Positions 35,394 to 37,923 of a stretch of 64,000 nucleotides of DNA are shown piece after piece. How positions within the stretch are numbered: position 1 is the stretch's first letter; every line of letters begins with the position of its first letter. The notes beneath the pieces are model-generated. The model searched no databases. It was not told where the DNA came from and was given only the letters and a program-made list of their open reading frames with translations. A program made the position numbers and the translations under genes. The stretch is taken from NCBI GenBank assembly GCA_021651055.1, contig JAJHOH010000001.1, positions 1,860,001 through 1,924,000 on the forward strand, in the 5' to 3' direction. Origin of the DNA: Candidatus Manganitrophus morganii. GTDB taxonomy: Bacteria > Nitrospirota > Nitrospiria > SBBL01 > Manganitrophaceae.

Positions 35394-36068
35394 ATGCGCA
35401 TCGGCCTTCTAGGCGGCACCTTCAACCCGATCCATAACGGACATCTCTATATCGCCGAGGAGGTCCGGAAAAAACTTCATCTTGATCGGATTCTTTTTAT
35501 CCCTTCCGGAACGCCACCCCACAAAAAGGAAAAAACGATCCCTCCGGCAAAACATCGCCTCGAAATGACCCGGTTGGCCCTATTGGGCCATCCCGATTTC
35601 GAGCTCTGTGAAATTGAAGTCAAACGACCGGGCAAGTCGTATTCCGTAGAAACCCTCTCGGAGCTGAAACGTCTCCACCCCCACGACAGGCTCTTTTTCA
35701 TCATCGGCACGGACGCCTTCGTTGATCTCCCGACCTGGAGGGAGCCCGAACGCCTCCTCTCGCTCTGCGATTTTGTCATTGTGACCCGCCCAGGCCATCC
35801 ATTCTCGCAATTTCCCGATATCGGACCGCTACAAAAGATCCAAAAGATCGATTCGAGCCAGCTCCTGGAACTCGACCACCTGGGCAAGGGAAGTGTGACA
35901 ATTCCATTAACATCAGGGACATCGATCCACTTTCTTTCGATTCTTCCCAGCCCGATCTCAGCAAGCGAGATCCGAAAGAGGCTGGCGGCCGGAGCGGAGA
36001 CGAAAAATCTCTTGCCTGAACCGGTGGCCTCATATATAATTAAAAACAAACTCTATGGGGCTTCATAA
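35394..36068 (+). CDS. nadD: nicotinate-nucleotide adenylyltransferase
   Basis: The 224-residue NAD-biosynthesis enzyme has the nucleotidyltransferase motif GGTFNPIHNGHL and the C-terminal ISASEIRKRL (ISxTxxR-type). Length is typical. The ATG follows the palindrome closely and has no clear Shine-Dalgarno. Its location before rsfS is conserved in many bacteria. Confidence 0.95.
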   Translation: MRIGLLGGTFNPIHNGHLYIAEEVRKKLHLDRILFIPSGTPPHKKEKTIPPAKHRLEMTRLALLGHPDFELCEIEVKRPGKSYSVETLSELKRLHPHDRLFFIIGTDAFVDLPTWREPERLLSLCDFVIVTRPGHPFSQFPDIGPLQKIQKIDSSQLLELDHLGKGSVTIPLTSGTSIHFLSILPSPISASEIRKRLAAGAETKNLLPEPVASYIIKNKLYGAS

Positions 36069-36114
36069 GGCAGAGATTAAGCGCACTGATTAGATAAGTA
36101 TAAAGAGGATAACG

Positions 36115-36552
36115 ATTCCTAAGGATTCAAAGAAAGTCCGCACAAAGAAACCGGTCTGGGATGCCAAGGCGAAAGCCCTTCTCATTGCGACGGCCGCCCA
36201 AACGAAGCACGCTGAGGAAATTACCGTTTACCAAGTCGGCGACCTGACCTCCCTCGCCGACTTTTTTGTCATCTGCTCTGCGGAATCGGAGCCTCAGATT
36301 CGGGCCATCGTCGATGCGGTTCACGACTCTCTCGCTAAAAAGGGCTCGAAGGCGCTTGGGGTCGAAGGCCGCGAGGCGAGCCTTTGGGTTCTCGTCGATT
36401 ACAATGACGTGATCCTTCATATCTTTAAAAAGGAAGCGAGGGAGTTTTACAATCTCGACCGACTCTGGGGAGATGCCCCGCAACTTCCTTTCCCTTCTTC
36501 AGAGCTGGAAGAACCTCCAAGAAAAAAGAAAGAGCGAGGGAGGGTCAGATAG
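36115..36552 (+). CDS. rsfS: ribosomal silencing factor RsfS, predicted ATT start
   Basis: The 145-residue frame encodes a clear RsfS/Iojap domain: LTSLADFFVICSAESEPQIR, KALGVEGREASLWVLVDYND, VILHIFKKEAREFYNLDRLW. It binds uL14 and blocks subunit joining in starvation. The frame has no ATG, GTG or TTG between its upstream stop (36091) and the domain. ATT at 36115 has AGAGG exactly 6 bases upstream and yields a basic N-terminus of normal length, so I call ATT as start. Position between nadD and the next gene, 3 bases apart, supports a real gene. Confidence 0.88.
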   Translation: MPKDSKKVRTKKPVWDAKAKALLIATAAQTKHAEEITVYQVGDLTSLADFFVICSAESEPQIRAIVDAVHDSLAKKGSKALGVEGREASLWVLVDYNDVILHIFKKEAREFYNLDRLWGDAPQLPFPSSELEEPPRKKKERGRVR

Positions 36553-36555
36553 TCC

Positions 36556-37923
36556 ATGCCTCTCTTAATTCTTATTTTCTTCGCCTTCATCGGGATTGTC
36601 GGTTATCTCGCCCAACTGAATCCGGAAAAGGTCACCTTTTTCATCACACGCGAGACCTCCTTTGAAATGCCGGTCACCGCGCTGATTCTCTTCTCCACCG
36701 CCTTCGGCGGCCTCCTGGTCATCCTCTCCGCCGGCATCCGCGAAACCAGAAACCTTTTTCTCAACTGGAAATACACCCGGCTGCAAAAGAAAGAAGCCCA
36801 GATCGAGACCTACTATACCGAGGCGGTCAACGCCTTTCTCGGGAAGCGGTATCGGGACGCCACCCTCCTTTTCCAGAAGGTGTTGGCGCTGAACCCGAAT
36901 CATGTCAGCACCCTCCTGCGGCTCGGAAAAATCCAGCGAATTGAGAAGAATTTCAATGAGGCGATTCGGCTCCATCGGAAGGCACGGAGTCTCGACGAGC
37001 AAAACATCGAGGTCCTCCTCGCCCTCTCGCGCGATCTCGAAGAGGCGCAGCGATTCGAGGAAGCGATTCAGCATTTGAAGGAAATTCTGCACCTCGATGA
37101 AACCAACGTCGCGGCGCTCACCCGTCTTCGAGACCTCCATATTCGGCTTCAGCATTGGGAAGAGGCCCATCCGATCCAAGAGAAGATCCTGAAGCTGCCG
37201 CTCTCCTCCGAGGCAAGCCAAAAAGAGCGGGTCATTTTCCTCGGAATCAAATACGAAATCGGGCGGCTCTTCCTGCAGCGGGACCAGAAAGAAATCGCCC
37301 GGCGCTACTTCAAAGGGGCCATCAAACTTGAAAAGGGATTTTTGCCGGCCTACATCGGCATCGGCGAGGTCCATCTGAAAGAAGGAAAAACGGAACTCGC
37401 CGCGGCCCTGCTCGAAAAAGCCTATGAGATGACGGACCATCTCATCTTGCTTCATCGCCTGGAAGATCTCTATCTCGAGATGGGGGAGCCGGAGAAGATT
37501 CTGCAGGTCTACCGGAAGGCGATCAATAAAGACCGCCACAACACGGTTCTCAAATTTTATCTCGGAAAGCTCTACTACCGTCTTGAAATGATCGATGACG
37601 CCTTCGAGACCTTGGCCGAGATCGACGCCCATGTCGAATATTTCCCCGATCTACACAAGATTCTCGGAAACATTTACATGCGGCGGGGAGAGCCCGAGTC
37701 GGCCGTGGAAGCGTTCAAAAAAGGTCTCAAGCTGAAGAAACGGGTCTTGGTCCCCTACTACTGCGCCCAATGCGACTATCACACCATCGAATGGTCGGGG
37801 CGATGCCACCGGTGTGGCCGGTGGAATACCTATCAGGCCAATCCAATCCTGGTCGACAAAGCCCACAAGAAAGCCCTCACCGAAACCCCCTATTCCACCC
37901 CACATCCCCGGGAGATCATCTAA
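36556..37923 (+). CDS. LapA-LapB-like fusion: DUF1049 membrane domain, TPRs and zinc ribbon
   Basis: The 455-residue protein begins with two membrane helices around a short loop (ILIFFAFIGIVGYLAQLNPE, then TALILFSTAFGGLLVI) typical of LapA/DUF1049. TPR repeats follow (about residues 85-400) and a C-terminal rubredoxin-like zinc site CAQC...CHRC. In E. coli LapA and LapB are separate neighbours; LapB recruits FtsH to degrade LpxC and thereby controls LPS synthesis. Here both parts are in one frame. Implication: an LPS outer membrane with LpxC control. ATG 3 bases after rsfS; GGAGG further upstream. Confidence 0.82.
   Translation: MPLLILIFFAFIGIVGYLAQLNPEKVTFFITRETSFEMPVTALILFSTAFGGLLVILSAGIRETRNLFLNWKYTRLQKKEAQIETYYTEAVNAFLGKRYRDATLLFQKVLALNPNHVSTLLRLGKIQRIEKNFNEAIRLHRKARSLDEQNIEVLLALSRDLEEAQRFEEAIQHLKEILHLDETNVAALTRLRDLHIRLQHWEEAHPIQEKILKLPLSSEASQKERVIFLGIKYEIGRLFLQRDQKEIARRYFKGAIKLEKGFLPAYIGIGEVHLKEGKTELAAALLEKAYEMTDHLILLHRLEDLYLEMGEPEKILQVYRKAINKDRHNTVLKFYLGKLYYRLEMIDDAFETLAEIDAHVEYFPDLHKILGNIYMRRGEPESAVEAFKKGLKLKKRVLVPYYCAQCDYHTIEWSGRCHRCGRWNTYQANPILVDKAHKKALTETPYSTPHPREII

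Follow-up and report, generated by a model that had tools for sequence, protein, structure and literature searches.

RsfS is a protein that holds the two halves of the ribosome apart, and its gene in Candidatus Manganitrophus, a manganese-oxidising bacterium, very probably starts at an ATT codon (36115..36117, forward strand), as judged from its sequence context and its conservation in relatives. A non-canonical rsfS start (ATT or ATC in most of the class) appears, moreover, to be a class-wide trait with lineage-specific shifts to GTG or ATG, beyond a single-gene oddity. Coordinates refer to the window, that is, to the whole 64,000-nucleotide stretch analysed, which belongs to a 4.29 Mb, single-contig genome (termed here G000); its sister genome is that of isolate GAC4 (CP114561).

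Counted from the ATT, the coding sequence (36115..36552, forward strand) comprises 145 codons plus a stop. Its product is unambiguously RsfS/iojap/YbeB: profile searches matched it to PF02410 with 109.5 bits (cut-off 21.6) and to TIGR00090 with 106.8 bits (cut-off 56.9), which bears out the original prediction of a clear RsfS domain between nadD and the next gene; a genome search found one rsfS copy in G000. The preceding gene, nadD (nicotinate-nucleotide adenylyltransferase; 35394..36068, forward strand; NF000840, 206.6 bits), is the probable upstream gene of an operon with rsfS, its stop lying 49 nt before the ATT, and a LapB-like TPR protein recognised by profile matches follows (36556..37923, forward strand), so that the gene order is nadD, rsfS, TPR protein. 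The open frame of rsfS (36094-36552) is closed on its 5' side by an in-frame TAG (36091..36093, forward strand), which excludes upstream starts, and the first ATG, GTG or TTG thereafter is the GTG at 36409--codon 105 of the open frame and already within the RsfS domain; as had been claimed, therefore, no in-frame ATG, GTG or TTG precedes the domain. The window contains 47 coding-like ORFs, and of the complete ones rsfS alone is preceded, 5' of its first canonical start, by sequence that looks strongly coding. The putative start is accompanied by a Shine-Dalgarno (SD) sequence, AGAGG (36104..36108, forward strand), which is conserved in the genus and is separated from the ATT by the spacer ATAACG (36109-36114), confirming the predicted spacing of exactly 6 nt.

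The arrangement AGAGG-N6-ATT, followed by a similar N-terminus, recurs in all six Ca. Manganitrophus genomes; 5' of the SD, insertions and deletions disrupt their alignment, and the stop of nadD is found at -49, -49, -5, -94, -48 and -26 relative to the ATT, in different frames. Across the order (families f1-f5), 17 of the 18 genomes have ATT as the codon placed by the SD (partly read by eye), and it stays while neighbouring codons vary: the codon preceding it reads ACG, AAG, ACA, ACT, ATC, TCA, GCC, CGC, AAA or GCA and, because its identity varies so widely, is not itself the start. Three of these genomes (G005, G003 and G014) have in-frame stops 4-5 codons 5' of the ATT, and hence no space for another start. 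Internal isoleucine codons of the same rsfS genes are ATT in 85 of 173 instances (49%), so that the uniform ATT at the start is not a matter of codon bias, although shared ancestry inflates this contrast and the chance figures carry no correction for it. In the eighteenth genome (G011, locus L015) the rsfS N-terminus seems frameshifted relative to the domain, ATT being present in the other frame; the frame break appears to be either an assembly error or real. Within family f5, the nadD and rsfS reading frames share 8 nt at four loci (L007, L010, L013 and L016), the TAA stop of nadD lying just inside rsfS (ATTNNTAA).

From the codon after the ATT onward, dN is well below dS in most genome pairs. 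Leaving aside the sister pair, which is nearly identical, and the closely related G002, same-genus comparisons gave a dS of 0.3-1.5 and a dN of 0.06-0.19 over the first 22 codons, and a dS of about 0.8-1.7 and a dN of 0.06-0.09 over the RsfS domain. Because dN is below dS within these 22 codons, the stretch following the ATT is translated and constrained.

That translation begins instead at ATA 36109, ACG 36112 or ATA 36100, or that ribosomes enter the gene by frameshifting from nadD or from a preceding mini-ORF, is very improbable: these three codons are near-cognate and in the rsfS frame, but they are not conserved and sit either 0-3 nt after the SD or before it, and the frame of nadD relative to rsfS varies among species, against frameshift entry. 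A nadD-rsfS frameshift fusion is ruled out by this variation in frame together with that in distance. The mini-ORF (36055..36093, forward strand; 12 codons, beginning with ATG) lies in the rsfS frame, overlaps the end of nadD and runs into the TAG that precedes the SD; it has no evident SD of its own, the arrangement is kept only in the sister genome among the relatives, and it is probably incidental. Its ATG at 36055 was rejected as the rsfS start, since the TAG follows after 12 codons and the ATG is not conserved. A sequencing error or a decayed gene has a negligible probability. The genome does look metagenome-assembled (contamination estimate 3.49%; the sister record is labelled MAG), but the ATT site is common to GAC4 and four further members of the genus, and a read error is very unlikely because six genomes agree; decay is contradicted by the more distant pairs, in which dS is mostly 0.7-1.7 and dN about 0.1. 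The original prediction survives the refutations proposed with it: other assemblies carry the same ATT, and close homologues have no canonical start at that place; the ATT start that it proposed is strongly backed by conservation in genus and order and by a parallel ATC in a sister family.

In this large family, termed f6 and probably the Nitrospiraceae, rsfS genes have the architecture AGGAGG-N6-ATC or one close to it. An SD-placed ATC is found in all 40 of its genomes that have no GTG, in 39 at the same codon and in one (G065) two codons later. One genus, g16 (L323-L330, L099-L105), provides a natural experiment: three genomes retain the ATC without a GTG, and a further 13 carry GTG as the codon preceding that position; in 12 of the latter the former ATC reads AGC, these 12 losses possibly descending from one event, and the remaining genome (G092) has GTG then ATC, the expected intermediate state. 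Because ATC became AGC in 12 of the 13 genomes where GTG arose, ATC is taken to be the former start in g16, and it was kept for as long as it was needed as a start. Together, the order-wide ATT and this disappearance of ATC from genomes that have gained GTG indicate conservation of the start codon beyond amino-acid or neutral expectation, ancestry being uncorrected.

Over the phylum, in 77 of 136 Nitrospirota genomes the stretch from the upstream stop (or from 30 codons back) to the domain contains no ATG, GTG or TTG. In family f13, ATT versions of rsfS carry AAGGAG (mean SD match 6.0) and ATG or GTG versions are without an SD (2.9). Families further removed have GTC, ATA or TTA as the homologous first codon, after a strong SD; the loci concerned (L019-L030 in f10; L271, L287 and L290 in f25; L266, L282 and L292 in f34) are suggestive, and only suggestive, of GTC, ATA and TTA serving as rsfS starts there. 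The way in which the codon varies among families suggests that the start codon itself has been under selection, and a weak start is not indispensable, since some members of the class have GTG or ATG. Gene callers restricted to ATG, GTG and TTG are likely to overlook rsfS, or to shorten it, throughout much of the Nitrospirota.

Among 39 loci from other phyla, rsfS often starts with TTG or GTG. At least four of these loci are without a canonical rsfS start at the expected place (L040 and L041 of Omnitrophota, L064 and L080 of Chloroflexi), ATA and CTG being candidate starts. The Escherichia coli orthologue (b0637) likewise has a weak start codon, a TTG after GGGGG, called a minor start in the literature (PMC10917681); TTG is, however, a standard start, whereas the ATT and ATC of Manganitrophus and f6 are not. 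Expression of E. coli rsfS is highest in the exponential phase (PMC10917681), and hence simple induction by starvation is not suggested. No description of an AUU or AUC start for rsfS was found among the papers searched in an open-access library.

Two control genes exclude an altered genetic code or generally odd starts, as does the fact that rsfS stands alone in the window: all 30 frr loci have an in-frame ATG where one is expected, and hpf, another ribosome-silencing gene, starts with ATG in 28 of 28. (TIGR00741, a hibernation-factor family, has four matches in G000, only one of them above the cut-off.) The gene infC starts with ATC in most genomes of the class, in G000 as GGAGG-N6-ATC (L216, G000:C1, about 1322478). 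The start classes of infC and rsfS are not strictly coupled, since they part in two places: in genera g5 and g7 of f5, an ATG and a longer N-terminus in infC go with an unchanged ATT in rsfS; in g16 the change, to GTG, is in rsfS, and infC still has ATC.

To our knowledge, very few genes have conserved AUU or AUC starts, the textbook case being infC. Going by PMC1780047 and PMC13009471, the conserved non-canonical starts on record include those of infC (AUU or AUA), pcnB (AUU) and the Staphylococcus aureus genes ccpN and cvfC1; PMC1780047 describes both AUU-dependent autocontrol of infC and the AUU start of pcnB. The likeness of rsfS to infC (AUU, AUC or AUA) is that of a translation-factor gene with a third-position mismatch in a start codon conserved across lineages. 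Control of infC is, however, autogenous--its own product discriminates the codon, whereas rsfS would answer to another factor--and in E. coli it involves a structured mRNA operator, none being evident at the rsfS start by pseudoknot-free folding, which detected no structure beyond that of shuffles (z 1.65 and -0.51). The AUU start of E. coli pcnB limits its translation, as cited in PMC13009471, but pcnB has another function and its case is presented as one of limited translation, not of feedback. In PMC13009471, ccpN (AUA) and cvfC1 (AUU) have conserved non-canonical starts with strong SDs, which yield about a tenth of AUG in reporters; unlike rsfS, they are not ribosome factors and their effect was measured by experiment, and the rsfS codon changes identity between families. 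On present evidence, rsfS would join infC, pcnB and ccpN as a gene with a conserved non-canonical start, the conservation appearing to be unusually deep.

What might such a start accomplish? IF3 rejects initiation complexes with a codon-anticodon mismatch, and infC feedback exploits this. Non-canonical starts are inhibited by excess IF3 (PMC2268962), and RsfS is an anti-association factor that binds uL14 and hinders subunit joining, as shown for S. aureus RsfS (PMC7125091); the Manganitrophus product is predicted to be such a uL14-binding anti-association factor. The proposed mechanism is as follows. The ATT at 36115, placed by AGAGG at 6 nt, would be decoded by the ordinary initiator tRNA; owing to its third-position mismatch, initiation would be poor and IF3 could reject it; the cell would therefore make little RsfS, and more of it whenever IF3 runs short with respect to 30S subunits, just as for infC, whose start is also non-canonical in G000; and, because RsfS would block joining by way of the 50S subunit and IF3 by way of the 30S subunit, the pair may be adjusted together. 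We infer the decoding by initiator tRNA, the low yield, the sensitivity to IF3 and the co-regulation with infC; that start codons are discriminated here in the manner of infC is plausible, infC of G000 itself starting with ATC. The reading as a whole--that a weak ATT keeps RsfS low and IF3-sensitive, as in infC--seems somewhat probable.

Its main rival accepts ATT as the start but makes of it a fixed attenuator holding RsfS at a low level, with IF3 feedback having no physiological weight; a comparable role has been proposed for pcnB, whose translation is described as limited by its AUU (cited in PMC13009471). Consistent with this are the TTG and GTG codons, weak yet standard, that rsfS often has in E. 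coli and other phyla, and the parting of infC and rsfS start classes in f5 and g16. Against it, third-position mismatches (ATT or ATC) have been retained with a strong SD, rather than ATG with a weak SD, and the former combination is what is expected if the codon itself matters; the fixed attenuator is considered unlikely, though it deserves to be kept in mind. Still less probable is that termination-reinitiation from nadD tolerates a poor codon, such that the ATT is close to neutral. The nadD stop does fall just inside rsfS (offset +5) in four f5 genomes and slightly 3' of the ATC in f6 (frames read by eye), but within the genus nadD stops occur from 5 to 94 nt 5' of the ATT, in varied frames, and yet the ATT is invariant in six of six genomes; moreover, a neutral ATT would let ATG, GTG or TTG appear often.

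If control by IF3 is the correct reading, it might extend further: as a tentative and rather doubtful proposal, RsfS and IF3 could form a start-codon regulon, in which a shortage of IF3 relative to 30S subunits raises both, thereby coordinating subunit splitting from both sides, and which might operate across bacteria through weak rsfS starts (ATT, ATC, possibly GTC, ATA, TTA and CTG; TTG and GTG elsewhere). A second ribosome factor with an infC-like start, kept across a bacterial class, would make start-codon discrimination a testable route for ribosome silencing; if this is true, the amount of RsfS may be set according to the cell's own reading of its capacity for initiation.
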